Shown here: positions 1,308 through 61,192 of the stretch, in pieces | How the letters are laid out: each line of letters begins with the position of its first letter | Position numbering within the stretch: the first letter of the stretch is position 1 | NCBI GenBank assembly: GCA_022821965.1 | Contig: JAJECN010000036.1 | Span: forward strand, 62,001 to 126,000 | Source of the DNA: Candidatus Poribacteria bacterium | GTDB lineage: Bacteria > Poribacteria > WGA-4E > WGA-3G | Direction: 5' to 3' | DNA length: 64,000 bases | Made by a program: the position numbers and the translations under genes | Notes under the pieces: model-generated | Seen by the model: only the letters and a program-made list of their open reading frames with translations | The model's database searches: none | Told to the model about the DNA's origin: nothing

Positions 1308-4300
1308 ATGCCAGATTTCAATATCAAACCAACACACAAGCCCATCAAAAACTACTATACTGAACTTGAAAAATATGCACAACATGGCGCAGAAAATGAA
1401 GGCACCGTCCGTGCCGCATTCCAGAATCTGCTTCAGCACTACTGCCACCAATCCAACCTCACGCTCCTCTGCGAAAAAAGTCTCTACACGTCGGAGAAAA
1501 GACGGATAACCCCCGACGGTGAAGTCGTCGATCCCTTCGGCTTACCACACGGCTATTGGGAGGCGAAAGACACCCAAGACGATCTACACGTTGAGGCGGA
1601 CAAGAAATTCGCCGCAGGCTACCCCTCAAAAAATATCGTCATCCAGTCTCCGACCCATGCGCTTCTCTATCAACACGGACGACTACAGCTCGACCTTGAC
1701 ATCACCGAACCGAGAAACCTCATTCAAGTTCTCCAGACCTTCTTCGCATATCAGGAAGAGAATATCTCCGCATGGCATACAGCGGTCTCTGAATTCAAAG
1801 ACACGGTGCCGGAACTCGGTGAAAAATTGGCGGCGTTGATTGAAACGGAACGCCAAAACAATCCGCATTTTCAGGAAGCATTCGCCAGTTTTCATCAACA
1901 GTGTCAAGCTTCGATTAACCCGAACCTCTCCGTCGCTGCCGTAGAGGAGATGCTCATCCAGCATCTGTTGACAGAACGCATCTTCCGCACTGTCTTTGAT
2001 AATCCTGACTTTACACGCCGAAATATTATCGCCCGTGAAATTGAAAATGTCATTGATGTGCTGACCGAGCGGACACTCAACCGCTCTGAATTTCTCCGCC
2101 CTTTGGAACCATTCTACGCTGCGATTGAGAAAACCGCCGCGACTATCACTGATTTCTCACAGAAACAGGGGTTTCTCAACACTGTCTACGAGCAGTTCTT
2201 TCAAGGGTTCTCCGTCAAGGTCGCCGATACACACGGCATCGTCTATACACCGCAACCGATCGTCGATTTCATGGTGAAAAGCGTTGAGCACATCTTACAA
2301 ACCGAGTTTGATCGTTCCCTTTCGGATAGTGGCGTGCATATCATCGACCCGTTCGTCGGCACTGGCAACTTCATCGTCCGTATTATGCAGGAGCTTGATC
2401 CCATCTCGCTGGAGCGAAAATACACCGCCGACCCGCCGGAACTCCAATGCAACGAAGTAATGCTCCTACCCTACTATATCGCCAATCTCAATATTGAGCA
2501 GCAGTTTTACACCACGACGAACCACTATGCCCCTTATGAAGGTGTCTGTCTGGTAGACACGTTTGAGATTGCAGAGGAACGGCAGCTGCAGTTATTCACC
2601 CCTGCCAATACAGCGCGCGTTGAAAAGCAGAAAGAGACCCCGATGTTCGTCGTCATCGGTAATCCACCTTACAATATGGGACAGGTTAACGAGAATGATA
2701 ACAACAAAAATCGAAAATATCAGACGATGGACCAACGGATCTCAGACACTTATGCAAAAGACTCTAAAGCAACACTCAGGAATAAACTTTCCGATCCGTA
2801 TGTCAAAGCAATTCGGTGGGCATCTGATAGAATTAGTGAAGATGGTGTTGTGACTTTTGTGACAAATAATGGCTTTCTCGACGGTGTAGCATTCGATGGA
2901 ATGCGAAAACGTCTTGCAGAAGAGTTTGACGCTATTTACATTTTGGACCTGGGGGGTAATGTCCGTAAGAATCCGAAACTGTCAGGAACAACACACAATG
3001 TATTTGGAATTCAAGTTGGGGTGAGTATTAATTTTTTCATCAAAAAGGCTGACAAGACAAATTCGCAAACGCAAATTTTCTATGCTTGTGTTGATGAATT
3101 CTGGCGGAAGGAAGACAAGTATAACCACCTCAATTCAAAGCTGCATTACCAGAATGTTGAATGGGGGCGAATGACCCCTGACAAACGGAATACATGGCTC
3201 ACCGAAGGTCTCCATGCTGAATTTGATACCTTTACCCCGATGGGAAATAAGGAAATGAAAGCAGCTAAAGGTGAAGCAACGGGTGTGATTTTCAAGACTT
3301 ACAGTCTTGGTGTCAGTACGAACCGTGATGCATGGGTTTACAATTTCAACCGAAACGTACTCACTGAAAACATAAGTAAAATGATCCAAACTTATAACGC
3401 TGAAGTTGCTCGATGGGGACAAAGAACAGATCGAAATGCTAACCTTGACAATTTTGTGGTATCTGATGACGAAAAAATCAAATGGAGTCGTAACCTAAAA
3501 CGCGAATTGAAACGAAACAGAATTGCTGAATATGCTGAACATAAGGTAAGAAATTCACTTTATCGTCCTTTCACAAAATCTAACTTGTTTTTTGACTCCA
3601 TTATGAATGATGAAGTTTCGCACTTTCCTTCTACCTTTCCTTCTTTTAAGACTGAAGAAGAGAATCGGGTGATTTGTGTCAGTGGCATTAGCGGTAATAA
3701 ACCTTTTCAAATGTTGGTGGTTGATGTAATTCCAGATCTTCATCTTACCGGGGATTCTCAATGCTTCCCGTTCTACATCTACGACGAGGACGGCACAAAC
3801 CGCCGCGAAAACATCACCGATTGGACGTTAGCAGAGTTCCGCGTGCACTACAAGGATGACACCATCACCAAATGGGACATCTTCCACTATACCTACGGAC
3901 TCCTGCATCATCCTGAGTATAGCGAAACATATCAGGCGAATCTCAAACGCGATCTGCCACATATTCCCTTTGCCAAAGACTTCCGGGGATTTGCCGAAGC
4001 CGGTAAGCGATTAGCAGATATCCACGTCAACTACGAATTCCAACCCGAATATGATAAGTTAAAGTTCATCCAAACCGCAGATGTACCGCTCAATTGGCGT
4101 GTCGAAAAAATGAAACTCTCCAAAGACAAAACTTCGCTCATCTACAACAATTTCCTGACACTATCCGGTATCCCTTCAAAAGTGTTTGACTATCGGCTCG
4201 GCTCTCGCTCCGCACTGGAATGGATAGTAGATCAATATCGTGTCAAAACAGACAAACGCAGCGGCATCGTCAATGACCCAAACCGCACAGACGACCCACA

Positions 4301-4385
4301 GTACATCGTCAAGTTGATTGGCAAGGTGGTTACGGTCAGCTTAGAGACGGTGGACATTGTTAACGAATTACCTGCCTTAAAGTAG
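1308..4385 (+). CDS. Type ISP/IIG-like restriction-modification enzyme (nuclease + N6-adenine methyltransferase + specificity domain)
   Basis: Single-chain protein of 1025 residues predicted to methylate adenine at a specific site and cut unmodified DNA. The N-terminus looks like a PD-(D/E)xK nuclease: D75, then E85-A-K87 inside PFGLPHGYWEAKD, with a Q-containing strand at about residue 113. The methyltransferase follows, with motif I DPFVGTG near residue 347 and motif IV NPPY near 452. The C-terminal third (from about 820) resembles the specificity domain of LlaBIII-type ISP enzymes. Classical type ISP enzymes are about 1,500 residues and carry a helicase between nuclease and methyltransferase. 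I see no Walker or DEAD motifs here, so the architecture is closer to type IIG. The start is fixed by the ribosome binding site at 1296. It stands next to a large STAND NTPase, suggesting a defence locus. Confidence 0.85.
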   Translation: MPDFNIKPTHKPIKNYYTELEKYAQHGAENEGTVRAAFQNLLQHYCHQSNLTLLCEKSLYTSEKRRITPDGEVVDPFGLPHGYWEAKDTQDDLHVEADKKFAAGYPSKNIVIQSPTHALLYQHGRLQLDLDITEPRNLIQVLQTFFAYQEENISAWHTAVSEFKDTVPELGEKLAALIETERQNNPHFQEAFASFHQQCQASINPNLSVAAVEEMLIQHLLTERIFRTVFDNPDFTRRNIIAREIENVIDVLTERTLNRSEFLRPLEPFYAAIEKTAATITDFSQKQGFLNTVYEQFFQGFSVKVADTHGIVYTPQPIVDFMVKSVEHILQTEFDRSLSDSGVHIIDPFVGTGNFIVRIMQELDPISLERKYTADPPELQCNEVMLLPYYIANLNIEQQFYTTTNHYAPYEGVCLVDTFEIAEERQLQLFTPANTARVEKQKETPMFVVIGNPPYNMGQVNENDNNKNRKYQTMDQRISDTYAKDSKATLRNKLSDPYVKAIRWASDRISEDGVVTFVTNNGFLDGVAFDGMRKRLAEEFDAIYILDLGGNVRKNPKLSGTTHNVFGIQVGVSINFFIKKADKTNSQTQIFYACVDEFWRKEDKYNHLNSKLHYQNVEWGRMTPDKRNTWLTEGLHAEFDTFTPMGNKEMKAAKGEATGVIFKTYSLGVSTNRDAWVYNFNRNVLTENISKMIQTYNAEVARWGQRTDRNANLDNFVVSDDEKIKWSRNLKRELKRNRIAEYAEHKVRNSLYRPFTKSNLFFDSIMNDEVSHFPSTFPSFKTEEENRVICVSGISGNKPFQMLVVDVIPDLHLTGDSQCFPFYIYDEDGTNRRENITDWTLAEFRVHYKDDTITKWDIFHYTYGLLHHPEYSETYQANLKRDLPHIPFAKDFRGFAEAGKRLADIHVNYEFQPEYDKLKFIQTADVPLNWRVEKMKLSKDKTSLIYNNFLTLSGIPSKVFDYRLGSRSALEWIVDQYRVKTDKRSGIVNDPNRTDDPQYIVKLIGKVVTVSLETVDIVNELPALK

Positions 4386-4410
4386 TAGGCACATGCCGTG
4401 TGCCGTAACG
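4383..4410. repeat. Palindromic GGCAC...GTGCC repeat
   Basis: TAGTAGGCACATGCCGTGTG followed by CCGTAAC, overlapping the stop codon of the restriction-modification gene. It is the same family as the copies at 42813-42911 and 46134-46336. Confidence 0.55.
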
Positions 4411-4501
4411 AAACCATAGAACCCGATAAATGCGATTTCCTAACCGCAATAGATCCCACAATTATTTCCACCTAAATTATCCGGAATATTTATTTTGCTT
4501 T

Positions 4502-4584
4502 CTTCAGCCCCGTAGGGGCGGCATATTTATAGAAAAAGATTCTACCCTCATCCCTTCAGCCCCGTAGGGGCGGCATGTTTATAT
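4502..4584 (+). repeat. Two direct copies of the R1 repeat
   Basis: Copies at 4502-4535 and 4554-4584 share CTTCAGCCCCGTAGGGGCGG followed by CATATTTATAGAAA-like sequence. Each has a CCCC/GGGG palindrome at its centre. They lie in the 351-base gap between the restriction-modification gene and the SMEK-STAND gene, which also holds the palindrome at 4383-4410 and the promoter at 4599-4627. Confidence 0.75.
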
Positions 4585-4598
4585 CATTCTGATTTTCC

Positions 4599-4627
4599 TT
4601 GATTCTTCTCATCAAATATGCTATTAT
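4599..4627 (+). promoter_or_regulatory. Sigma-70-type promoter for the SMEK-STAND gene
   Basis: TTGATT (4599-4604), a 17-base spacer and TATTAT (4622-4627). The predicted leader is about 105 bases. A GAGGTG ribosome binding site lies just before the ATG at 4737. The promoter means this gene need not depend on transcription from the restriction-modification gene. Confidence 0.6.
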
Positions 4628-4736
4628 TTTGTTAAGGTTAATTGTGGCAATGCCTATTGAATATATTTTTCGTGTATTCCAGTAATATTGCTACGTGACA
4701 AAATCGCTTATTTGTTATCTATGAGGTGTTAACTCG

Positions 4737-7700
4737 ATGAATTTGAAAAAATGTCGTGTTAGGATTAGTGAATTGATGTCGAAATTTGTAGTTCAGGTTG
4801 AAAACGAGAATGCAATGGGAATGTTAGACATCAACCGCGTCTCTGAAGATGTACTCATTCCCTTGTTTTCGGAAGTCTATGGTCATACAGATTTGAAAAA
4901 TCTAAATGCGTCTGAAGGTCCTAATTCCCCAGCAATAGATTTAGGCGATAAGAAAGAAAGGATAGCATACCAAATTACATCAACACCCACTTCTCGAAAA
5001 GTAAAGGCGACTCTAAAGAAATTCAGCGATTATAAACTGTACGAAAAATACGACCGTCTTATCATCTATAGTCTGATAAAAAAGCAAAACAGATATCAAG
5101 GAAAAGGATTTGATGAAATAATACAAGGGAAATTTTCTTTTGATAAAGATAAGGATATACGTGATTATCACGACTTACTCAGAGAAATATCGGGGTTTTC
5201 TTTAGAGAAGTCACGTAGGATAAAAAATATATTCGAGCAACATTTCGGTGAAGAACAAGAAAATGACGAGTTCCCAGATGTAATGGCTTGGTTAGAGCAT
5301 ATCAATGATTTATGGGGAGAGGGATTAGGAACGATAAAGATTAATCGGGAGAAATTAAGCAGTGACTTGCAGGGTTTTGCCTCGCGAGGAAACGGAGTCA
5401 TTATTGGAAGTCCGGGTGTTGGAAAAACATATTTGCTCAAAGAACTCTGTCAGCACCTAAAATCTACCAAAATACCGCATCTGCTCTTACCGATTGACCA
5501 ACTCGGGAATGGTACTCCTGAAGATTTGCAGAGCGAATTATCATACAAAGGGGATCTGATTGAAAGGTTGAAGTCTGTTCCTGTTTCGGATAAGAAAGCA
5601 ATTTTGCTGTTTGATGCTTTTGATGCCGCTCGAAACGATCAAACGCGCAAGCGTTTTCTACGCCTGATTCGGCGTGCAATTCATGAACTCAAGGAATCTT
5701 GGAATGTCATCGTTACAGTCCGAACTTATGACGCCACGAAATCACAAGAACTCTTGGACTTGTTTGGCAACCCTGATAATACTGTTCTAACCCAAGATGC
5801 TAACAACGGAATTTCATGCCGCCATTTCACAATCCCACCGTTCAATAAGAACGAGATATTACAAGCATTAAGTCAAATTGGCTGTCCGAAATCTGTTTAC
5901 GACGATGGCTCTGACGATTTTAAAAATATCCTTGCAAACCCCTTCAATCTTTGGCTTTTGGAAAAGATTCTAAGCACTTTACCCGACGAGGATATCTGCA
6001 GGACTTTTAGTATGGTTCGTTCTGAAGTCCAGTTACTTGATTTATTTTGGTCCCGACGAATAGAGGCTGCAGACAATGAAAATGACCGTTTATCTGTTCT
6101 TGAAGAAATCGCACGCGAGATGGTTGAACAGTGCTCCTTGAGCATTAGGCAGAGCAATGTTCGTAAAACTTTAATCCAGACAGCGTGGAATGATCTCCTG
6201 AGTGATGAAATTTTGGCAAAGGTTTCTTCCACCGGACAACGAATTGCCTTTTCTCACAACATTCTCTTTGATTACGCAATTAGCGTTTTACTCATTGACG
6301 ATGAACCTCAACACCTTGAGGATTTCATTCTTGAAGATCGATCGCGTCCCGTCTTTCTACGCCCGAGCCTCACCTACTTTTTCACCCGTCTCTGGTACTA
6401 TGATGACTCCACAAGTTTCTGGTGTGCCTTCTGGCATATTTTGCAAAGAGATCAATCTGTACCTTTGCGTCTCGTCGCGCGCTTGGTGCCAACAAGCGTT
6501 ATTGCAAATGAAGCGCGCGATATTAAGAAGTTGATGCCACTTGTAGAGGAATTGCGGAGCACAACAGAGCTTCCAAACAAGGCAATAATGTGGCTTTTGC
6601 AATCACTCCGGACGCTGCAAATTGAGAGCGACGCGCTCTGGATTAATTTTTTCGACCAAATTTCAGTACACCTGCACAGTGACTTTGCTTGGGATTTGGC
6701 AAATCTTACTTCAGATATTCTTGAGCGAGCACTAAAAACTGAAACATCTATCATAGACGCTTGTGGACGGATTGGCCGGCGGTTACTTGAGTGGGTGTGG
6801 AAAGAGAGGGAAACGAGCGAAAACGATTGGTATAATCGGCTTGGTGGTTATTGGGCAGTCCCGCTTGTTGCTAAGACATATCACACGAATCCTGAAAAAT
6901 CTCGGATGCTTCTTGAAAAGATTCTTGAACTACCGCAGGAAGATAATTTCCCGATAACCTTCTTGTCATGGTTGACTGAGCATGTCAACAGGATTTGGGA
7001 GTATGATCCTGAATTTGTTACTTCAATCTATCGCACGGTGTTTGGACACGACGAACTCAGTGACGAGAAGACAAACTTCGGCAGTAGCAGGATCTTATCA
7101 ATGACAAGTACTCGCCGACAGGATTACAGCATGTGCCGATATCGATTGATAAAACATTTCCCTGGTTTTCTTCAAGCAACGCCATTACCCGCAACACTAT
7201 CGGTAATCCGAAGTTTAAATGTCTTTATTGTTAAAGAACATATTGCCAGGGCAGAAGGCATAAAGATGTTCAATTTTCGTGGAAAATCTACTCACTTTGT
7301 GCAAGATCATAGTTATATCTGGGATGAACAACAGTACACCGATGAACCGATTGAAATGGCGAACGCTCTGTTTGAATACATCGAAGAATTGGCGATGTCG
7401 GAAGATCCGCGCCTTGATTCACTGCTTGATGTTTTCCGCGATGAGATGGTAGTTGCTTTCTTCTGGAAACGGCTTTTAAAGACAGGATCCCAGTTTCCCA
7501 AGGTTTTCGCACCACGTCTGTTTGAACTTTGCATTGCAAAACCAATACAGATGCATTCCGAAACCCATTATGAACTCTGTCTGTTTTTAAAAGCCGCCGC
7601 GGCTGATTTTACACCGAATAAACTTTTTCAGATTGAAAAGAGCATTTTGGTACTCCCGAGCGAAGCGAGAGACAAAAATCACCGCAGCGTTCTTGAAGAG

Positions 7701-9371
7701 GATAGAAATCGGCTCCTTGCACAAATCCCGGTGGATTTGCTATGTACTGATGCGGCAAAGAGAATTCGAGAAGAAATGGAGCGTAAAAACGATATCCCGG
7801 AGAACCGCCCCCCGGTTCGTTTTAGGACTTGGTCAGAACCTGTTACTGAAGAAAAGTGGCTTCAAAACCAGGGCGTTGACACGACTACTCCGGAAAATCA
7901 AGAATTGCAACGTTTTTCCAAGCATCTCAATCAATTCAGTTCCGACTGGCGAAATGAGGCACCAACTCAAGAGTCCGTTGAGTTGATGTTACCGCGGTTA
8001 CAAGAGGTATATACTGCCCTAAAGAGCAATACAGAAGCCGATCAAAAGGTAATCAATTTACTTTGGCGTAATCTAACGGATTGTGTAGCAATTATCGCTC
8101 GAATTGCCAATAACCTTGAGAGTGATTCCTTTGCTTTTTGTCGACACGTGCTTTTAGAGGGGGCAGAACATGAGCAGCCCAAACCAAACCCCACATACGA
8201 CAATCAATTCAGTTCTTCGGGTTATTCTCCGTATCCACGACATGATGCTGCCCGTGGGCTACTTCGAGTCGCGTTTCACCAACCTGATGCAGAAATATTG
8301 GATGCCATCGAAATACTTGCGGCGGACCCCGTACCGTCTGTCCGGATGGTAACGGCGATAGAATTGGCCAACGTTTATGTCAAAGCACCAGATAGGTTCT
8401 GGCACATTGTGGACAATAGGGCAATACATGAAAGGAATCTTGTTGTTCAAGAATACCTCTATCTTACGTTGACACAGGTCGCTGGAAGAGCAAAAGAGAA
8501 TGAGGACAAAACAACCCACGTCATGGCAAAACTACTTGAACACACACCATTACCACCAGGGAAACAAGGCCTTTCAGATCCATTTACGGGTTTGTTAATG
8601 TGGTTGGCACTTGAACGGGAAAATCCGTGGGCATTGAAAATGATCAAAGATAGGTTTTTCAAACACCCAAGCCAGTTTGCTAACATTCTAACCCGTGCTG
8701 TATCGCAAGTTATGAGGCGTTACGTCGCCCCGAAGTATCTTGAAACACCCGATGGATGTAAAAAGGCGAAGCGAGGCATCGAATGGTTAGAAAAGGTGAT
8801 TGATGTAACTTCTGATGAAATTGAGAAATTGTATAAGATATTTAACAAACGTGAGACTGAAGAAGTTGAGAAAAAGTTACGCGACCTTTACACAGTGATT
8901 GACCAAGTTATCACACGCCTTTACTATGAGGTTGCACACGGAAGCACGCAGTCTGAGAAACCAAAGGAGGAGGTTTCCTATAGGTTGCACTGCCGTTTTT
9001 ATAGTGAAGTTAAGCCACTAATGGAACAAGTCATCAATTTCGCACTCAACAAAGAACACGGTATGATGTTTGCACCGACAGCGCACCATTTTATGCAAGT
9101 TCTAACCAGTTTTCTGAGCTGTGATTCCAAAAGTGTTTTGCATTTAGCAGCAAGGGTTGTAAAATCAAGTGAGCAGTTCGGTTATACCCTTGATTCTCTT
9201 GCAGTTACGGAGGTCGTCGAATTCGTTGAAATTGTCCTCGCTGACTACCGAGAGGAAGTGCGTGATGGTGAAGCATTGGAAGACCTGCTGAATTTATTGG
9301 ATATGTTTGCTAAAACAGGATGGACAGATGCACTTAAGCTTGTTTGGCGGCTTGATGAGGTTTTCCGGTAG
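4737..9371 (+). CDS. SMEK-domain STAND NTPase, putative antiphage protein
   Basis: A 1544-residue soluble protein. Residues 1-170 match what I know of the SMEK domain: a nuclease-like fold with D68 in PAIDLGD and Q79-I-T in AYQITSTPTS, a PD-(D/E)xK-like arrangement with Gln for Glu. A P-loop NTPase follows: Walker A GSPGVGKT at 224-231, and Walker B with D293 in ILLFDAFDA, plus STAND/NACHT-like helices. From about residue 480 to the end it is almost entirely helical and looks like a long superhelical sensor of the kind used by Avs and other STAND defence proteins. It has no signal peptide or membrane segment. The order nuclease, NTPase, sensor suggests that ligand recognition triggers oligomerisation and nucleic-acid cleavage; this is inference. 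It has its own promoter and follows a restriction-modification gene. Confidence 0.75.
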   Translation: MNLKKCRVRISELMSKFVVQVENENAMGMLDINRVSEDVLIPLFSEVYGHTDLKNLNASEGPNSPAIDLGDKKERIAYQITSTPTSRKVKATLKKFSDYKLYEKYDRLIIYSLIKKQNRYQGKGFDEIIQGKFSFDKDKDIRDYHDLLREISGFSLEKSRRIKNIFEQHFGEEQENDEFPDVMAWLEHINDLWGEGLGTIKINREKLSSDLQGFASRGNGVIIGSPGVGKTYLLKELCQHLKSTKIPHLLLPIDQLGNGTPEDLQSELSYKGDLIERLKSVPVSDKKAILLFDAFDAARNDQTRKRFLRLIRRAIHELKESWNVIVTVRTYDATKSQELLDLFGNPDNTVLTQDANNGISCRHFTIPPFNKNEILQALSQIGCPKSVYDDGSDDFKNILANPFNLWLLEKILSTLPDEDICRTFSMVRSEVQLLDLFWSRRIEAADNENDRLSVLEEIAREMVEQCSLSIRQSNVRKTLIQTAWNDLLSDEILAKVSSTGQRIAFSHNILFDYAISVLLIDDEPQHLEDFILEDRSRPVFLRPSLTYFFTRLWYYDDSTSFWCAFWHILQRDQSVPLRLVARLVPTSVIANEARDIKKLMPLVEELRSTTELPNKAIMWLLQSLRTLQIESDALWINFFDQISVHLHSDFAWDLANLTSDILERALKTETSIIDACGRIGRRLLEWVWKERETSENDWYNRLGGYWAVPLVAKTYHTNPEKSRMLLEKILELPQEDNFPITFLSWLTEHVNRIWEYDPEFVTSIYRTVFGHDELSDEKTNFGSSRILSMTSTRRQDYSMCRYRLIKHFPGFLQATPLPATLSVIRSLNVFIVKEHIARAEGIKMFNFRGKSTHFVQDHSYIWDEQQYTDEPIEMANALFEYIEELAMSEDPRLDSLLDVFRDEMVVAFFWKRLLKTGSQFPKVFAPRLFELCIAKPIQMHSETHYELCLFLKAAAADFTPNKLFQIEKSILVLPSEARDKNHRSVLEEDRNRLLAQIPVDLLCTDAAKRIREEMERKNDIPENRPPVRFRTWSEPVTEEKWLQNQGVDTTTPENQELQRFSKHLNQFSSDWRNEAPTQESVELMLPRLQEVYTALKSNTEADQKVINLLWRNLTDCVAIIARIANNLESDSFAFCRHVLLEGAEHEQPKPNPTYDNQFSSSGYSPYPRHDAARGLLRVAFHQPDAEILDAIEILAADPVPSVRMVTAIELANVYVKAPDRFWHIVDNRAIHERNLVVQEYLYLTLTQVAGRAKENEDKTTHVMAKLLEHTPLPPGKQGLSDPFTGLLMWLALERENPWALKMIKDRFFKHPSQFANILTRAVSQVMRRYVAPKYLETPDGCKKAKRGIEWLEKVIDVTSDEIEKLYKIFNKRETEEVEKKLRDLYTVIDQVITRLYYEVAHGSTQSEKPKEEVSYRLHCRFYSEVKPLMEQVINFALNKEHGMMFAPTAHHFMQVLTSFLSCDSKSVLHLAARVVKSSEQFGYTLDSLAVTEVVEFVEIVLADYREEVRDGEALEDLLNLLDMFAKTGWTDALKLVWRLDEVFR

Positions 9372-9421: not shown

Positions 9422-9504
9422 TTCTATAGACATTTCGCCCCGCTGGGGCTTTAATACAGCGGTAGACTTGACTTTCTATAGACATTTCGCCCCGCTGGGG
9501 CTTA
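9422..9504 (-). repeat. Two R1 repeats in reverse orientation
   Basis: Copies at 9422-9452 and 9473-9504 share CTATAGACATTTCGCCCCGC followed by TGGGGCTT. They are oriented opposite to the pair at 4502-4584, so the SMEK-STAND gene is bracketed by inverted pairs of R1. The 324-base gap from 9372 to 9695 also contains the small gene at 9557. Confidence 0.75.
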
Positions 9505-52434: not shown

Positions 52435-54060
52435 ATGAGAAAATTATTTGTTTATTCCGTAATTGTTTTTACGATGATTATTCATACTTCACACGCCGAT
52501 ATGACCTCAGATCTACAAGCCTACCCGAGTAGCGAATACCTTGTTGGTGTGTCGGAAGGACCAGGAACCGTCGAAACCCTCATGGATTTAGCAGAAGCTC
52601 AGTTGTCCAAGAAAATTTTCGACAGAGTCAGATATGTTATCAACGAGAACGAAGAGAATTGGCTTGTATACAATCGTGTACGTGAACACTACGGCACGGT
52701 GATCCAGAGTTCGGTAAGATCTAAACTCAAAGGAATTCGGGAATATTATCCTTCCACGGCACCAGATGCCTATGTTATTGTCTATGTTAAGCGTGATAAG
52801 CTCAAGCAGATTTATACCGACGAAGCTGCGGATTTACGCCAAGAAATTAATGACATCGTTCATAAAGCACAAGTCATAGAAGAAGCTGGAGATTTATTAG
52901 ATGCAGCCAAGATTTATTTGAGCACATACCGATTGTATGAAGCATTGAAAGAAGCAGAGCTCATTCAACTTGGGGCAGCATACACAACGCCTCCTGAGGC
53001 ATTTGCTGAATTGGCGGATACAGCAGGAGGAGTAGCCAAAGCAGATTTGATGATGTTCCATGGAGAGGTGATTGCAAAAGTAGCGAAGATCGCGCCTCAA
53101 ACCATCATTGGTATCAATGATGTGGCACGTATTACTGCCTATCAATTCCAGCAGCAGAGCAGCGACTGGGGCACTAAAGTGAAGACAGAAGAACTGACGT
53201 ATGATAGTTTCAATGTGGTAAGCCCTTCTTCAGCGGTTTTTTTGGAGGCTCTCACGGACGAGTTAGGTTGGCATCGCTCTCTTCCGATGCGCGGATTTCA
53301 ACCACTTCGCGAGAAACATGAGGTTCAGTCCCAAGACGCGCCCTTGCAATTCTTCGGAGGATATTGGGCAGATGGCGACAAAATTACGCTCCGCACCACG
53401 CTACGCGATATCACAACGGGTGAATTTAGGGCTGCGGCTGTTGTACAATTTAGTGAAAGTCAACGCCGAGACACGGACACCTCACTTAAACCTGACAATC
53501 TTGAGCAATTCGACCAGGATTGGAAACTTTTTAATCCACTTGAGGAAACACCAATTGAAGAAGTACCACAGGCTGAAGAGACACCACAACCAACAGAAAC
53601 TTCACCCACAGAAGTTTCGCCTGAGAAATCCGTTGTCAATCCGAAAGTTTTTGCCAATGACGGATTAACAATTGAAATAGCAACAGATAGAGGAACAGGA
53701 CCGGTGGTTTATACCGAAGGCGAAACAATGACAGTTTTCGCACGGGCGAACCAAGAAACCTACATCCGTTTAATTTATATTCTTGCTGATGGAAAGCGGA
53801 CACTGTTGTTAGCAAACTACCATATTAGTCCTGAAATGGTTAACCAAAGTTTGGAAATTGGGAAGTTTGTATGTACACCGCCATTTGGTGCGGAGCAGCT
53901 GCATGTTTATGCTAAGCGAGAACCGTTCCCTGACTTGGCACCCGGGGAAACGTATGAGGAGGGTGGATACGTCTACATAACCCCAACACGTGGTTTTCAA
54001 CCTTTCAAACCACAGCCCGAAGGGTCGGCACATATTTCTATTACTACTTTACCAAAATAA
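52435..54060 (+). CDS. Secreted LPP20/DUF4384-domain protein
   Basis: 541 residues with a signal peptide (LFVYSVIVFTMIIHTSHADM). The first part (YLVGVSEGPGTVETLMDLAE) resembles the LPP20-type fold and is followed by a helical region. A Pro/Glu/Thr-rich linker spans about 375-400. The C-terminal DUF4384 domain has MTVFARANQETYIRLIYILA and EIGKFVCTPPFGAEQLHVYA. DUF4384 often co-occurs with caspase-type domains, and three caspase fusions follow directly on the same strand, so it may be a partner in their pathway. That link is inference from order. Confidence 0.78.
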   Translation: MRKLFVYSVIVFTMIIHTSHADMTSDLQAYPSSEYLVGVSEGPGTVETLMDLAEAQLSKKIFDRVRYVINENEENWLVYNRVREHYGTVIQSSVRSKLKGIREYYPSTAPDAYVIVYVKRDKLKQIYTDEAADLRQEINDIVHKAQVIEEAGDLLDAAKIYLSTYRLYEALKEAELIQLGAAYTTPPEAFAELADTAGGVAKADLMMFHGEVIAKVAKIAPQTIIGINDVARITAYQFQQQSSDWGTKVKTEELTYDSFNVVSPSSAVFLEALTDELGWHRSLPMRGFQPLREKHEVQSQDAPLQFFGGYWADGDKITLRTTLRDITTGEFRAAAVVQFSESQRRDTDTSLKPDNLEQFDQDWKLFNPLEETPIEEVPQAEETPQPTETSPTEVSPEKSVVNPKVFANDGLTIEIATDRGTGPVVYTEGETMTVFARANQETYIRLIYILADGKRTLLLANYHISPEMVNQSLEIGKFVCTPPFGAEQLHVYAKREPFPDLAPGETYEEGGYVYITPTRGFQPFKPQPEGSAHISITTLPK

Positions 54061-54174: not shown

Positions 54175-54255
54175 CTTCAGCCCCAGCGGGGCGGCATGTT
54201 TATAGAAAATTGAGCACCCACCCTGCTTAGCCCCAGCGGGGCGGCATGTTTATAG
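54175..54255 (+). repeat. Two R1 repeats immediately upstream of the first caspase gene
   Basis: Copies at 54175-54209 and 54225-54255 share GCCCCAGCGGGGCGGCATGT followed by TTATAG. The second ends 6 bases before the caspase gene's ATG at 54261 and occupies the place of a ribosome binding site. Confidence 0.8.
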
Positions 54256-54260
54256 TATCT

Positions 54261-56318
54261 ATGAGAAAAATATCTTTGTTTCTATCTTTTAGTCTGCTCT
54301 GCGTTGCAATCGTATTTATCGCCTCTACCGAGTTGTTTTCGCAGCGCGGCATGAATGTCCCTGTCCGCATGGAGAGTGGAGAAGAGTTTTCGCTCTATAA
54401 AGACTCCTATGCGCTCGTCATTGGAAACGGAGCATATCCTGTTAAGAACGGTTGGAATCCGCTTCCGGGCGCGGTAGAAGATGTCAGAGAAGTTGCAGGA
54501 ACCCTCAAACGCCATGGGTTCAATGTAACCCTAAAAATAGATGTAACGAAATCTGAGTTTGATAAAGTTTTTTCAAAGTTTATCTATGAATTTGGGAAAG
54601 ACAAAGATAATCGCCTCTTATTTTACTATGCTGGGCACGGATACACAACAAAATCGGCAACAGGCGAAGACCTCGGTTACCTCGTGATGCTTGATACACC
54701 ACACCCAGAGAATGAAGCCGAGTTCGACCTCTATAGTGTAGATATGGTCAAATTCGTATCGGACTCAAAGAAGATTCATGCCAAACATGTGCTGTTTATG
54801 TTTGATAGCTGCTTCTCAGGGACAGTCCTTAACCTAAGGAATAGAGTTACACCCTCACATATCACAGACAGAATCAAAAATCCTGTGCGCCAGTTCATCA
54901 CTGCTGGTCGTGCAGACGAACCCGTGCCAGATAGGAGTGAGTTTAAGAAGGCGTTTTTGAATTTGCTTGAGGGACGTGTTGAGGAACCAACGCCAGACGG
55001 TTACCTGACAGGCGTTGAGTTAGGAGATTATCTCTATCGAACAGTGCCAAAATTCTCTCAAGGACAGCATCCACAACACGGTAAAATTCACGATCAGCAG
55101 CTGAACACAGGCGATTTCGTGTTTGTGCTGCCACAAAATAAACAGAATGAAAGTGAAGATGGCGATGTTGAGTTAGACACAATCGCAACGTTGAATGTAA
55201 CCAGCACACCCGGCGGCGCGGCTGTCTACATGGATGGAACTTTAATCGGTACAACCCCAGTTCAAGATTATCAGATTGACACCGGTATTCGTCTTGAGAA
55301 ACAAGTGAATGTAGGGTTAGAACTTTCAGGTTACAAAAGCCGTGTTAGAAGAATAACATTAAAAGGCGGTCAACAGTCGCCATGGGATGTGAATTTAGAG
55401 CAGATGCAAATGGAAACAGTACCACCGAAATCGAAACCGAGTGTACCACAAACGATTCTTGAAAATGATTTTACCTTAAACGAGAAAGCGCGATCACCTT
55501 CTCCAAATGTACCACAGACAATTCTTGGGAAAGACGGTGCTCCAATGGTATTGATTCCTGCTGGCGAGTTTCAGATGGGAAGCAACTACAGCGATAATGA
55601 GCAACCGGTGCATACGGTCTATGTTGATGCGTTCTATATGGATGTCCACGAGGTGACTGTTGGACAATACAATCAATTCATTCATGCCACTGGGCACCGT
55701 CCGTTACCTACTAACATTTCTATCTACTCTCCAACAGATCGACATCCGGTTGTAAATGTAAGTTGGCACGATGCGATGGCGTATGCGAAATGGGCGGGTA
55801 AACGCCTACCGACGGAAGCAGAATGGGAGTACGCTGCGCGCGGTGGCTTAGAGGGGCAGAGGTATCCCTGGGGGAACACTCCACCGGATGGCACACAATG
55901 TAATTTTGCGGATAAGAACCTCAGTAAAGTTTGGGATAGAGAATTACGCGATAAATGGGGAGACGACTGGTCAGATAAAAATATTGATGATGGTTACACA
56001 TACGTTGCTCCCGTCGGCAGTTATCCACCGAACGGGTATGGGCTATATGACATGGCAGGGAATGTATGGGAGTGGTGTTTTGATGCGTATGATGAAAACT
56101 TCTATGCGAATTCTCCTCATCAGAATCCAATTGCAGGCATCATTATAACAGATGTGGAAAATAATACAACAACTATTAATAAACGACGCTCAGCGCGTGG
56201 TGGATCCTGGTTTGACGTATCTCAAGGTGTGATGGTTACTGTGCGTGGTAACGGGGCTGCTTCAACAGGCATGTGGACCAATAAAGGGTTTCGTTGTGTA
56301 AGGGCAGCAACCCATTAA
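54261..56318 (+). CDS. Exported caspase-PEGA-FGE-fold protein, copy A
   Basis: 685 residues. A signal peptide or anchor occupies 1-28 (LFLSFSLLCVAIVFIASTEL). A C14 caspase-like domain spans about 46-290, with His126 in FYYAGHGYTT and Cys184 in FMFDSCFSG. A PEGA domain lies at about 310-380 (TATLNVTSTPGGAAVYMDGT). An FGE/SUMF1-type C-lectin fold fills 425-680, from GAPMVLIPAGEFQMGS to GFRCV. The two cysteines FGE uses for catalysis, just after RGGSW, are replaced, so it is unlikely to make formylglycine. Residues 651-675 are highly divergent among the three copies. The ATG at 54261 is preferred to one at 54246 inside the R1 repeat. Presumed periplasmic or surface protease with a ligand-binding tail. 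Confidence 0.85.
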   Translation: MRKISLFLSFSLLCVAIVFIASTELFSQRGMNVPVRMESGEEFSLYKDSYALVIGNGAYPVKNGWNPLPGAVEDVREVAGTLKRHGFNVTLKIDVTKSEFDKVFSKFIYEFGKDKDNRLLFYYAGHGYTTKSATGEDLGYLVMLDTPHPENEAEFDLYSVDMVKFVSDSKKIHAKHVLFMFDSCFSGTVLNLRNRVTPSHITDRIKNPVRQFITAGRADEPVPDRSEFKKAFLNLLEGRVEEPTPDGYLTGVELGDYLYRTVPKFSQGQHPQHGKIHDQQLNTGDFVFVLPQNKQNESEDGDVELDTIATLNVTSTPGGAAVYMDGTLIGTTPVQDYQIDTGIRLEKQVNVGLELSGYKSRVRRITLKGGQQSPWDVNLEQMQMETVPPKSKPSVPQTILENDFTLNEKARSPSPNVPQTILGKDGAPMVLIPAGEFQMGSNYSDNEQPVHTVYVDAFYMDVHEVTVGQYNQFIHATGHRPLPTNISIYSPTDRHPVVNVSWHDAMAYAKWAGKRLPTEAEWEYAARGGLEGQRYPWGNTPPDGTQCNFADKNLSKVWDRELRDKWGDDWSDKNIDDGYTYVAPVGSYPPNGYGLYDMAGNVWEWCFDAYDENFYANSPHQNPIAGIIITDVENNTTTINKRRSARGGSWFDVSQGVMVTVRGNGAASTGMWTNKGFRCVRAATH

Positions 56319-56449
56319 GTCGTTCTCTCTTATCCGAACGTTTTGAATTGGGAACCGTTACGGTTTTAACGATTGGAAAATTTTAGTTCCTGTGAGTTGA
56401 GGCTTGTCCCAACCAAAATCTTATAAGAGTAAAGTGTTTGTGGTATTCA

Positions 56450-59014
56450 ATGAAAAAAATACGACCATTTTTATTCTTTAGTATCTTTTGTAGTGCAATT
56501 TTACTCATCATTACCACCGAGTTGTTTTCGCAGCGCGGTATGAATGTTCCTGTCCGCATTGAGAGCGGAGAAGAGTTTTCGCTCTATAAAGACTCCTATG
56601 CGCTCGTCATTGGAAACGGAGCATATCCCGTAAAGAACGGTTGGAATCCACTTCCAGGTGCTGTGGAAGATGTGAAGGAGGTCGCAGAAGTCCTTGAACG
56701 CCACGGATTCAATGTAACCCTAAAAATAGATGTAACGAAGTCTGAGTTTAATAAAACATTTTCGGAGTTCATCTATGAATCGGGCAAAGATAAAGATAAC
56801 CGTCTCCTATTTTACTATGCTGGGCACGGGTATACAACAAAGGCAGCAACAGGCGAAGACCTCGGTTACCTCGTGATGCTTGATACACCGAGTCCGACGA
56901 ATGCTGCGGAGTTTGATCTCTACAGTGTGGATATGGTCAAATTTGTGTCAGATTCCAAAAAGATTCATGCCAAACATGTGCTGTTTATGTTTGATAGCTG
57001 CTTCTCAGGGACAGTGCTCAATCTGAGGAACAGGGTTACACCCTCCCACATCACGGACCGGATTAAAAATCCAGTCCGTCAATTCATAACAGCAGGTCGT
57101 GCGGATGAACCCGTGCCGGATAGGAGCGAGTTTAAGAAGGCGTTTTTGAATTTGCTTGAGGGACGTGTTGAGGAGCCAACACCAGACGGTTACCTGACTG
57201 GCGTTGAGTTAGGGGATTATCTGTACAGGACGGTGCCCAAGTTTTCTCAAGGACAGCATCCGCAACATGGAAAGATTCACGATCAGCAGTTAAACACAGG
57301 TGATTTTGTATTCGTGCTTTCTCAAAACGAGCAGGACAGTAATAAGGATAGGGATATTGAGTTGGATACGATAGCAACGTTGAACATAACCAGCACGCCA
57401 GAAGGCGCGAAGGTTTACGTTGATGGTGTTGTAGTCGGTACGACTCCATTGCGTAGTTATCAGATTGACACCGGCGTGTCTCTTGAGAAGCAGGCGAATG
57501 TAGGGTTAGAACTTTCAGGTTACAAAACCCGTGTTAAGAGAATGACGCTGGAAGGCGGTCAACAGTTCCCGTGGGATGTGCCGTTAGAGAAAATGACGAG
57601 TGAGTTTGCTGAATCCATAACTGATGTCCAGAGTGATGAAGAAACTGCAACGTATCTCTCGCTGGTGTCTGATAATCCAAGCATTCTTGTACCAATAAAC
57701 GATATGAAGGAGTGGAGCGGGTGGCATGGTTGGTTCTGGGAAAAAGTGAAAGGTGAACAATCTACTGAACGGCCTTCTATCTTTGTGGGCAATTACGCGG
57801 ATAGATTTGACCACTGGATGTACTCACACGCCGAAAGCCACATCGCCTATGATATAAGTGGTGGTGAATACTCTCAATTTGATGCGCATTTAATTACACC
57901 CAATCCATGTATAGAAACCATTGAACTTATATGCCTCCTTGATAACAAAGTCGTCTATAATTCAGGTCGGGTTAGGGTTTTTGAACCAATGCATGTCGCA
58001 TTCAACATACCTGCTGATGCCAAAACTATGACGATCCGCGTAACAGATGGCGGCGATGGAACTCGCTGCGATCACTGGATACTTGGAGACGCTCGTTTAC
58101 TGGAGCACTTACAACCTGCCTCCAGCAATTCAAAAACGGATGGACTACAAGCGACCCTTGAAAATGATGTCATCTTAAATGAGGAAGTACGATCACTTTC
58201 TTCAAATATATCACAGACGATTCTTGGGAAAGACGGTGCACCAATGGTGTTGATTTCCGCTGGTGAGTTTCAGATGGGCAGCGGTCCCGGAACCGTTTAC
58301 AATTCCGCTACAACTCCTGTCCATACGGTCTACATTGATGATTTTTATATAGACGTTCATGAAGTAACTATTGGACAATACAACCAATTTGTTCGTGAAA
58401 CTGGACATCGTCCCTTATCCGCTGAGGTTTCTACTTATTCTCCAACGGATCGGCACCCTGTTGTTCTTGTGAGTTGGCACGATGCAATGGCATACGCACA
58501 ATGGGCAGGTAAACGCTTGCCCACAGAGGCTGAATGGGAGAAAGCCGCACGCGGCGGCTTGGTAGGTAAACAGCATCCATGGGGTAACGCAGCATTGGAT
58601 GGGACCCAGTGTAATTTTGCGGATAAGAGCCTGAGCAAAGTTTGGCATACCGGATGGGGCGATAATCATGCTGATAAAGATATTGATGATGGTTATCCAT
58701 ACACGGCACCCGTTGGGAGTTATCCGCCGAACGGATACGGGTTATATGATATGGCAGGTAACGTAACGGAATGGTGTTTTGATGCGTACGATGAAAATTT
58801 TTATGCAAATTCTCCGCGCCGAAATCCGATTGCAAGCATTATTGTAAAAGATGCTGATAATAATATCATAGATGTTAATAAACAACGCGTCTTGCGGGGT
58901 GGCTCTTGGTATTATTCGCCAGGGACAGTGTGGATCGCCAGTCGCAACGCGAATCCACCTACATTCACATTCATCAACCACGGTTTTCGTTGTGCAAAAT
59001 CTGTAACGCCTTAA
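56450..59014 (+). CDS. Exported caspase-PEGA-NPCBM-FGE-fold protein, copy B
   Basis: 854 residues. Signal segment PFLFFSIFCSAILLIITTEL. The caspase dyad is again His126 (FYYAGHGYTT) and Cys184 (FMFDSCFSG). The PEGA domain is followed by an extra module of about 150 residues not present in A or C: DMKEWSGWHGWFWEKVKGEQ through CDHWILGDARLLEH. It looks like an NPCBM/NEW2 carbohydrate-binding beta-sandwich. The FGE fold (MVLISAGEFQMGSGPG to GFRCAKSVTP) ends the protein. Its hypervariable stretch is 58910-58981. The ATG at 56450 has no ribosome binding site. Confidence 0.83.
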   Translation: MKKIRPFLFFSIFCSAILLIITTELFSQRGMNVPVRIESGEEFSLYKDSYALVIGNGAYPVKNGWNPLPGAVEDVKEVAEVLERHGFNVTLKIDVTKSEFNKTFSEFIYESGKDKDNRLLFYYAGHGYTTKAATGEDLGYLVMLDTPSPTNAAEFDLYSVDMVKFVSDSKKIHAKHVLFMFDSCFSGTVLNLRNRVTPSHITDRIKNPVRQFITAGRADEPVPDRSEFKKAFLNLLEGRVEEPTPDGYLTGVELGDYLYRTVPKFSQGQHPQHGKIHDQQLNTGDFVFVLSQNEQDSNKDRDIELDTIATLNITSTPEGAKVYVDGVVVGTTPLRSYQIDTGVSLEKQANVGLELSGYKTRVKRMTLEGGQQFPWDVPLEKMTSEFAESITDVQSDEETATYLSLVSDNPSILVPINDMKEWSGWHGWFWEKVKGEQSTERPSIFVGNYADRFDHWMYSHAESHIAYDISGGEYSQFDAHLITPNPCIETIELICLLDNKVVYNSGRVRVFEPMHVAFNIPADAKTMTIRVTDGGDGTRCDHWILGDARLLEHLQPASSNSKTDGLQATLENDVILNEEVRSLSSNISQTILGKDGAPMVLISAGEFQMGSGPGTVYNSATTPVHTVYIDDFYIDVHEVTIGQYNQFVRETGHRPLSAEVSTYSPTDRHPVVLVSWHDAMAYAQWAGKRLPTEAEWEKAARGGLVGKQHPWGNAALDGTQCNFADKSLSKVWHTGWGDNHADKDIDDGYPYTAPVGSYPPNGYGLYDMAGNVTEWCFDAYDENFYANSPRRNPIASIIVKDADNNIIDVNKQRVLRGGSWYYSPGTVWIASRNANPPTFTFINHGFRCAKSVTP

Positions 59015-59124
59015 ATCCTTTTATCTTTACTTGTTATCCACAACCGATAAACGAATTGGGAGCGATCCAGTCTTAACGATTGGTAAACTTTTAGTCACTG
59101 CAAACCGAGGTCTCCTTTCAACTC

Positions 59125-59153
59125 TTAAAGCCTTGTAAGGTATATGTTTATAG
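59125..59153 (+). repeat. Degenerate R1 repeat upstream of caspase copy C
   Basis: TTAAAGCCTTGTAAGGTATA followed by TGTTTATAGG: the palindrome is weakened but the ATGTTTATAG end and its spacing to the next ATG match the copy at 54225-54255. Confidence 0.55.
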
Positions 59154-59158
59154 GATCT

Positions 59159-61192
59159 ATGAGAAAAATATCTTTGTTTCTATCTTTTAGCCTGCTCTGG
59201 GTTGCGAGCGTATTTATTGCATCTACCGATTTGTTTCCACAACGCGGTATGAATATCACTGTTCGCACAAAGGGTGGGGAGGAGTTTGCGCTTTATAAAG
59301 ACTCCCATGCACTCGTTATTGGAAACGGAGCATATCCTGTAAAGAACGGTTGGAACCCGCTTCCAGGCGCAGTGAACGATGCCAAGGAGGTCGCAGAAGT
59401 TCTTAAACAACATGGATTCAATGTGACTCTGAAAATAGATGTAACAAAGTCCAAATTTAATCAAGCGTTTTCAGAGTTCATCTATGAGTCTGGCAAAGAT
59501 AAAGATAACCGTCTCCTATTTTACTATGCTGGGCACGGGTATACAACAAAGGCAGCAACAGGCGAAGACCTCGGTTACCTCGTGATGCTTGATACACCAA
59601 GTCCGACGAATGCTGCGAAGTTTGATCTCTATAGTGTGGATATGGTCAAATTCGTAGCGGACTCTAAGAAGATTCATGCCAAACATGTCTTATTTATGTT
59701 TGATAGCTGCTTCTCTGGCACAGTGCTGAACCTAAGAAATCGGACTACACCCTCCCATATCACGGACCGGATTAAAAATCCAGTCCGTCAGTTCATAACA
59801 GCAGGTCGTGCGGATGAACCTGTGCCTGATAGGAGCGAATTTAAAAAGGCGTTTTTAAATCTACTTGAAGGTCGCGTTAAAGAACCAACACCAGACGGTT
59901 ATCTGACTGGCGTTGAGTTAGGGGATTATCTGTACAGGACGGTGCCCAAGTTTTCTCAAGGACAGCATCCGCAACATGGAAAGATTCACGATCAGCAGTT
60001 AAACACAGGTGATTTTGTATTCGTGCTTCCTCAAAACGAGCAGGACGGTAATGAGGATAGCGGTATTGAGTTGGATACGATAGCAACGTTGAACATAACC
60101 AGCACGCCGAGTGGAGCGACGGTTTATGTAGATGGCGAGGTAATCGGCATAACTCCGCAACATGACTACCAGATAGATACTGGGGTGCCCCGTGAAAAAC
60201 AGGTAAATGTAGGGTTGGAACTTTCGGGTTACAAAAGCCGTGTTAAGAAGATAACATTAAAGGGCGGACAACAATTCCCATGGGATGTCCGCTTTGAGAA
60301 ATTGACGACACAATCAGTAGATCCGAAATATAATTCCAGTGTCCCACAAACGATTGAAGAAGCGCGATCACCTTCTCCAAATGATATATCACAGACGATT
60401 CTTGGGAAAGACGGTGCCCCAATGGTGTTGATTCCCGCAGGCGACTTTCAGATGGGACACGCTGGGAATGCCACTACAAGCCCTGTACATACTGTCTACG
60501 TTGATGCCTTCTATATAGACGTACACGAAGTGACGGTTGGACAATACAATCAATTTGTTCGTGAAACCGGACATCGCCCCTTACACGCAAACATTTTTAT
60601 CTACTCGCCAACGGATCGGCATCCTGTTGTTCTTGTGAATTGGCACGATGCAATGGCGTATGCACAATGGGCGGGCAAGCGATTACCCACAGAGGCAGAA
60701 TGGGAGAAAGCGGCGAGAGGCGGCTTGGTAGATAAATATCACGTATGGGGGGACGCTGAATTGGATGGAACACAGTGTAATTTTGCAGATAAAAACCTGA
60801 GCAAAATTTGGGATAAAGAAAGAAGACCTGAAGAGAATTGGGCGGACAAAGATCTTGATGATGGCTACGCGTATACGGCTCCTGTAGGCAGTTATCCTCC
60901 GAACGGATATGGGTTATATGACATGGCAGGTAACGCTTGGGAGTGGTGTTTTGATGCTTATGATGAAAATTTCTATGCGAATTCTCCGCGCCGGAATCCA
61001 ATTGCAGACATTATTATAAGAAATGGAGAAAATAACGTAATGAGCGTCAATAAAATGCGTGTAGCACGTGGTGCTTCTTGGTACGACGCGCCGCGAGGCG
61101 TGTGGGTTGCTAGTCGCCTTGGGGTATCTACCGAAAGAGTAAAATTATCTTTCAACATCGGTTTTCGTTGTGTGAAGTCAGTAACTCCTTAG
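59159..61192 (+). CDS. Exported caspase-PEGA-FGE-fold protein, copy C
   Basis: 677 residues with the same order as copy A: signal segment (LFLSFSLLWVASVFIASTDL), caspase with His126 and Cys184, PEGA (TATLNITSTPSGATVYVDGE), FGE fold (MVLIPAGDFQMGHAG to GFRCVKSVTP). The hypervariable stretch is 61082-61159. The N-terminal leader peptide is almost the same as that of copy A, while part of the caspase-to-PEGA region is nearly the same as copy B, which suggests recombination between copies. The FGE active-site cysteines are missing here too. Confidence 0.85.
   Translation: MRKISLFLSFSLLWVASVFIASTDLFPQRGMNITVRTKGGEEFALYKDSHALVIGNGAYPVKNGWNPLPGAVNDAKEVAEVLKQHGFNVTLKIDVTKSKFNQAFSEFIYESGKDKDNRLLFYYAGHGYTTKAATGEDLGYLVMLDTPSPTNAAKFDLYSVDMVKFVADSKKIHAKHVLFMFDSCFSGTVLNLRNRTTPSHITDRIKNPVRQFITAGRADEPVPDRSEFKKAFLNLLEGRVKEPTPDGYLTGVELGDYLYRTVPKFSQGQHPQHGKIHDQQLNTGDFVFVLPQNEQDGNEDSGIELDTIATLNITSTPSGATVYVDGEVIGITPQHDYQIDTGVPREKQVNVGLELSGYKSRVKKITLKGGQQFPWDVRFEKLTTQSVDPKYNSSVPQTIEEARSPSPNDISQTILGKDGAPMVLIPAGDFQMGHAGNATTSPVHTVYVDAFYIDVHEVTVGQYNQFVRETGHRPLHANIFIYSPTDRHPVVLVNWHDAMAYAQWAGKRLPTEAEWEKAARGGLVDKYHVWGDAELDGTQCNFADKNLSKIWDKERRPEENWADKDLDDGYAYTAPVGSYPPNGYGLYDMAGNAWEWCFDAYDENFYANSPRRNPIADIIIRNGENNVMSVNKMRVARGASWYDAPRGVWVASRLGVSTERVKLSFNIGFRCVKSVTP

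Follow-up and report, generated by a model that had tools for sequence, protein, structure and literature searches.

In a 2012 survey, 33 of 671 metacaspases were fused to an FGE-sulfatase domain (FGE, formylglycine-generating enzyme), 15% of metacaspases had transmembrane or N-terminal helices, possibly signal peptides, and 37 sequences were assigned to an extracellular or membrane-plus-extracellular location (PMC3501461). Such metacaspase or orthocaspase–FGE fusions place a C-terminal FGE fold after a C14 p20 domain, and some metacaspases begin with a helix or a signal peptide (PMC3501461; PMC8283722). Orthocaspases with a C-type-lectin (CLec) tail have been known since 2020, and the orthocaspase–CLec/FGE architecture is common to the variable proteins of cyanobacterial diversity-generating retroelements (DGRs; PMC7517822). 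C14 is also used with DUF4384: orthocaspase–DUF4384 fusions occur in cyanobacteria and alphaproteobacteria (PMC8283722, PMC6426788), 23 cyanobacterial orthocaspases being of this kind (PMC8283722). Here we describe a locus of a sponge-associated bacterium, from a Candidatus Poribacteria metagenome-assembled genome (MAG; 5.69 Mb, 95% complete; G000, contig C48), within a 64,000-nucleotide stretch of contig JAJECN010000036.1 (positions 62,001 to 126,000; hereafter the window). It consists of three tandem caspase genes (copies A, B and C) and a partner gene immediately upstream of copy A (Table 1). We give a probability of about 0.6 to the reading that these four genes form a single envelope-located protease module, in which a scaffold accompanies exported orthocaspases with swappable binding tails.

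The architecture of A, B and C is a variant on the described metacaspase–FGE fusions and N-terminally anchored caspases. The copies are same-strand open reading frames (ORFs) that, as a previous sequence-only reading of the window had it, share a signal segment, a C14 domain with His126 and Cys184, a PEGA domain and an FGE fold. The Pfam matches (Peptidase_C14, 64–73 bits, cut-off 21.4; PEGA, 38–44 bits; FGE-sulfatase, 204–218 bits) each exceed the gathering cut-off, and in all three copies His126 lies in YYAGHGY and Cys184 in FDSCFSG. That reading overlooked the additional NPCBM domain of copy B, left out the partner gene and, in view of the helices and extracellular assignments of the 2012 survey, overstated the case in calling bacterial caspases mostly cytoplasmic (PMC3501461). 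Compared with the published FGE fusions, PEGA (in copy B, PEGA and NPCBM) lies between protease and tail, the gene is in tandem triplicate and an LPP20–DUF4384 gene is linked to it; compared with the DUF4384 fusions, DUF4384 is here on a separate, putatively exported protein whose other parts resemble LPP20 and LpoB. The literature searched contained neither a combination of caspase with PEGA nor a conserved linkage, in Poribacteria, between exported caspases and an LPP20/LpoB-like/DUF4384 protein. The linkage is the new part of this locus and the part most worth following.

By eye, the partner protein (541 residues) begins with a convincing signal peptide (MRKLFVYSVIVFTMIIHTSHA/D, with the predicted cleavage at HTSHA/D). 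Its DUF4384 match, at 26.2 bits, is slightly below the 27-bit cut-off and LPP20 is not called in the window copy; in two homologues (L140 and L181) DUF4384 exceeds the cut-off and LPP20 is sub-threshold. In the AlphaFold model (pLDDT 78, pTM 0.78) the LPP20-like part is followed by long helices, then by an alpha-beta domain and finally by the Ig-like DUF4384 at the C terminus, and Foldseek returned weak but consistent matches to LpoB, PelC, TolB, FlgT and CsgG (E 3e-4 to 2e-2; LpoB 4q6l, E 3.1e-4; probability about 1 for LpoB, PelC and CsgG), all of which are envelope proteins. A sequence search of the PDB with the partner profile gave zero matches.

A survey of 85 poribacterial genomes found the partner gene in 30. 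Versions with 77–94% identity occupy the same place at four other loci (L025, L026, L027 and L031), distant versions (38%) lie by the caspases of L139 and L140, and the gene adjoins a caspase of the A/B/C subfamily in seven genomes (G000, G063, G082, G046, G042, G028 and G020). Of the 39 partner-like places returned by the phylum search, 26 lie within 6 kb of a C14 gene, and in 25 of these the two genes share a strand; the best 16 places all belong to the 26, and five of the 13 without a nearby C14 gene are at contig starts. A 5 Mb genome contains one to a few C14 genes, so the chance of adjacency, per gene, would be about 2% at most in the majority of the genomes concerned, which are related to one another. 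The adjacent caspases, which have signal-like N termini, represent at least four architectures (FGE-, WD40/Glucodextran_B-, CARDB- and short-type). A functional pairing of partner and caspase is further supported because DUF4384 and orthocaspase are joined in single cyanobacterial proteins, a fusion/split argument.

One of these architectures is a second type of putatively exported poribacterial caspase (L173, L174, L175, L176, L183 and L184), in which a WD40 propeller and Glucodextran_B Ig-like repeats precede a C-terminal caspase (Pfam domains were run on L175 and L183). Its DTCYSG motif is intact, and an LPP20–DUF4384 gene follows each copy.

Copies A, B and C, the sole C14 genes in the host genome (n = 3), are predicted to be catalytically active orthocaspases of clan CD, family C14. 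The S1 pocket of TbMC2, the T. brucei metacaspase MC2, binds basic P1 residues through Asp95 and Asp211 (PMC6426788). D74 and D182, which together with His126 are invariant in an alignment of 22 relatives in which some have lost Cys184, are the predicted equivalents of this pair by motif position, suggesting that A, B and C probably cleave after Arg or Lys. Candidate substrates are envelope proteins of the same cell, neighbouring cells or sponge proteins. The closest solved relatives by sequence are MALT1 paracaspases, and Foldseek concurs, although MALT1 is eukaryotic and cytosolic and, unlike A, B and C, carries Ig and death domains. As to the recognized C-terminal p10 domain of type I metacaspases, the Pfam C14 match spans only model positions 3–144 of 233 and is followed by a further conserved, unassigned stretch (residues 197–292); in the AlphaFold model of copy A, the p20 core mostly has pLDDT values of 80–95. 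Residues 171–292 are 97–100% identical among the copies although 27–74% of synonymous sites differ, which points to an old duplication and strong purifying selection on the protease. Recent gene conversion as a source of the near-identical protease halves was rejected on the same synonymous differences. Within the caspase part, B and C are closer to each other than either is to A.

All three caspases are probably exported, as the sequence-only reading proposed. Each N terminus starts with M(R/K)K and has two to three Lys or Arg residues ahead of a 15-residue stretch with a mean Kyte–Doolittle value of 2.3–2.9, a profile that resembles those of the window's other envelope proteins and differs from those of the cytoplasmic proteins tested. 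Both PEGA and NPCBM are typically found in extracytoplasmic proteins. A hydrophobic N terminus is kept in 25 of the 27 poribacterial members of the subfamily and also in relatives outside the phylum. In several relatives the cleavage site, immediately ahead of a conserved Q, is clearer (MSA/Q, AAA/Q or LLA/Q), and L037, a relative of deltaproteobacterial/myxococcal origin, shows an AxA site. In two Candidatus Fischerbacteria proteins (L039, 4864–6807; L040, 4825–6759) a kinase, whose Ser/Thr kinase domain was shown for L039, is followed by a transmembrane segment and then by a close relative of the caspase, an order in which the caspase would face outside; these proteins would be receptor-like kinases with an external caspase.

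The FGE fold of the tail is backed by Pfam, by PDB matches to FGE and by Foldseek. Judged from the C-terminal alignment, it is a binding fold and not a formylglycine (FGly)-generating enzyme, because both FGE catalytic cysteines, which we take to be those equivalent to human C336 and C341 between RGGSY and GFRC, are absent: A, B and C have zero cysteines between RGGSW and GFRC. Matches of the tail further include GldK/PorK and additional FGE-fold families without FGly-generating activity. The last 45 residues of the tail show the highest divergence among the copies (39–55% identity, pN 0.32–0.40); in C-type-lectin DGR proteins, this is the face that undergoes diversification. A DGR origin of this variability was rejected: an RVT_1 search of the host genome gave zero matches, and in a template-repeat search with copy A 56170–56318 all matches other than the self-match were short and weak, with E values of 0.7 or worse. 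Reverse transcriptases are present in three of eight relatives (G063, G082 and G020), placed away from the caspase loci. Nor does the tail qualify as specially hypervariable, its divergence being a moderate excess over that of stand-alone FGE folds in a genome with 21 FGE-fold matches: the C-terminal FGE block is the least conserved (0.47 compared with 0.67–0.77 for other blocks), and the corresponding values for stand-alone folds are 0.37 and 0.32–0.52. Thus, A, B and C share with the cyanobacterial DGR proteins a caspase and a variable CLec/FGE-fold C terminus, but their divergence is ordinary. The suggestion that the copies recognize different targets is plausible given a near-constant protease beside a divergent tail, and tail divergence moderately favours such partitioning; the support is limited because the stand-alone FGE folds also vary there.

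Among the 85 genomes, 55 have a C14 gene of any kind and 16 have the A/B/C subfamily (27 genes), with tandem or clustered copies in 6 of the 16. Full-length relatives are almost all from Candidatus Poribacteria, the nearest outside the phylum being from Thermodesulfobacteriota and Bacteroidales MAGs. The dyad is not consistently missing from homologues, His being present in 27 of 27 subfamily members and Cys in 20 of 27; yet two lineages have lost Cys184. In one well-supported clade His (L028) or Arg (L029, L033, L137 and L138) stands in its place, and L032, within this clade, retains Cys in a degraded motif (DNCFSS); in a separate lineage (L142 and L143) the substitute is Ser. By sequence, the Cys-lost members are pseudo-orthocaspases as defined previously, with dyad loss and the S1 Asp residues kept; known pseudo-orthocaspases mostly have Tyr/Ser, whereas the poribacterial proteins keep His and substitute Arg, His or Ser for Cys (PMC6426788). 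One genome (OX639973, G082) combines a tandem predicted to be active (L027) with a sister gene that has lost Cys (L028). The partner gene lies beside none of the 7 Cys-lost loci and 7 of 12 Cys-bearing loci (hypergeometric p about 0.016, a value that ignores kinship among loci).

Two further observations concern individual members of the subfamily. The Ser-bearing proteins (L142, 5342–7021; L143, 4502–6166) are caspase–FGE proteins with DSSFSD in place of the Cys motif and a different gene neighbourhood. On the complete chromosome OX639973, a B-type copy with NPCBM (L027, 2774–5854) is interrupted within the NPCBM region and so forms two ORFs, which reflects either decay of the copy or a sequencing error.

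We favour a module in which the first gene would supply an exported LPP20/LpoB-like/DUF4384 scaffold, presumably in physical contact with the caspases, and the next three would supply exported orthocaspases anchored on envelope or extracellular ligands through their C-terminal PEGA, NPCBM and non-catalytic FGE folds. Tandem duplication would have kept the protease nearly constant while the binding tails diverged, so that the copies would probably work at different sites or ligands while cleaving similar bonds. Several observations weigh against this model. The partner is present at the caspase locus in only 7 of the 16 subfamily genomes, and the adjacency counts are non-independent owing to homology among Poribacteria. 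Two subfamily members (L136_3508 and L141_4601) have no hydrophobic N terminus upstream of the caspase, and in copy C the residue at −1 of its relatives' cleavage site is Pro (LFP/Q), so that either cleavage or a membrane anchor is possible. The full-length structure model has a mean pLDDT of 60, with the FGE C terminus poorly resolved.

The locus could instead be a regulated cell-death or conflict module, in which the tail senses a phage, rival or host ligand and the caspase kills the cell or a neighbour, a role already suggested both for cytoplasmic conflict systems with metacaspases and for DGR proteins with C-type-lectin tails. We consider this unlikely: the architecture shared with DGR variable proteins, matches to the PADLOC caspase model (45–59 bits) and the rapid change of the tail are consistent with it, but the Pfam scan of A, B and C gave no NACHT/STAND, TPR, EACC1 or effector-associated domain, NCBIfam caspase_w_EACC1 scored 54–60 bits against a cut-off of 140, the host genome and tail have neither the reverse transcriptase nor the template repeat of a DGR, and export would separate the protease from cytoplasmic targets. 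Slightly less probable still is that the proteases are released, bind sponge glycans through their tails and target matrix or immune proteins of the sponge. Poribacteria are largely sponge symbionts and copy B has a carbohydrate-type NPCBM module; however, both caspase subfamily (16/85) and partner (30/85) are patchily distributed, the nearest full-length relatives outside the phylum are the thermodesulfobacterial and Bacteroidales proteins, and no outer-membrane secretion signal was identified.

The Cys-lost members raise the further alternative that these are structural or regulatory envelope proteins for which proteolysis is secondary and the caspase fold serves as a scaffold, like that of pseudo-orthocaspases. 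Loss of Cys184 in 7 of 27 members from two lineages, with His, the rest of the fold and, among the 22 aligned proteins, both S1 Asp residues retained, fits this possibility, which we regard as doubtful because copies at DUF4384-partner loci retain the dyad and the window copies are essentially invariant around it. That the proteins are FGly-generating enzymes fused to a protease and mature exported sulfatases is very improbable, the high PF03781 scores notwithstanding, given the missing catalytic cysteines and the matches to GldK/PorK and further non-FGly families. The four-gene envelope module remains the preferred reading.

Table 1. Features of the caspase–partner locus (window positions; SP, putative signal peptide)
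Feature	Position	Strand	Basis
Partner: SP, LPP20-like N-terminal part, helical middle, LpoB/TolB-N/PelC-like alpha-beta domain, C-terminal Ig-like DUF4384	52435..54060	+	Pfam, AlphaFold, Foldseek
Copy A: SP, C14 caspase, PEGA, FGE fold; 685 aa	54261..56318	+	ORF, Pfam, dyad residues
Copy A putative export segment, MRKISLFLSFSLLCVAIVFIASTELFSQ	54261..54344	+	Hydropathy, n-region charge
Copy A caspase domain: p20 (residues 50–196) and conserved end (197–292)	54408..55136	+	Pfam, alignment, AlphaFold
Copy A dyad codons	His126 54636–54638; Cys184 54810–54812	+	
Copy A PEGA domain	55188..55406	+	38.5 bits
Copy A FGE/C-type-lectin-like fold	55542..56303	+	Pfam 218 bits, PDB FGE matches, Foldseek FGE, C-terminal alignment
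Copy B: SP, C14, PEGA, NPCBM, FGE; 854 aa	56450..59014	+	Pfam, dyad residues
Copy B dyad codons	His126 56825–56827; Cys184 56999–57001	+	
NPCBM/NEW2 domain, copy B only (residues 426–550)	57725..58099	+	41.2 bits (cut-off 23.9)
Copy C: SP, C14, PEGA, FGE; 677 aa	59159..61192	+	Pfam, dyad residues
Copy C dyad codons	His126 59534–59536; Cys184 59708–59710	+	

A promoter and terminator scan of the locus found promoter-like sites no more often than in shuffled sequences. A palindromic repeat, GCCCCAGCGGGGC, with the tail GCATGTTTATAG, occurs as closely spaced intergenic pairs, none of which is expected by chance: one pair (54180–54205 and 54230–54255, plus strand) lies directly upstream of copy A and overlaps its alternative upstream ATG, and another is at 9424–9449 and 9476–9501 (minus strand). 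It resembles a dispersed repeat of the REP type. Elsewhere in the window (1308–9371), a Type ISP restriction–modification gene (Type_ISP_C, 357 bits) adjoins a gene for a 1544-residue SMEK–NACHT/STAND protein that matches the PADLOC candidate PDC-M54A (662 bits); the two are a probable defence pair.

More broadly, and tentatively, Poribacteria may possess an extracytoplasmic caspase signalling system in which an LPP20/LpoB-like/DUF4384 protein would organize exported caspases with interchangeable ligand-binding domains (FGE/PEGA/NPCBM, WD40/Ig or CARDB), with the Cys-lost pseudo-caspases as regulators. In most discussions, bacterial caspases are cytoplasmic proteases of cell death or defence; the repeated, conserved pairing of putatively exported caspases with one envelope protein described here points to the cell envelope and to a concrete partner, and would tie the recurrent, unexplained caspase–FGE and caspase–DUF4384 fusions into one module. 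The occurrence of putatively active and Cys-lost caspases within one phylum offers a direct way to test the purpose of catalysis.

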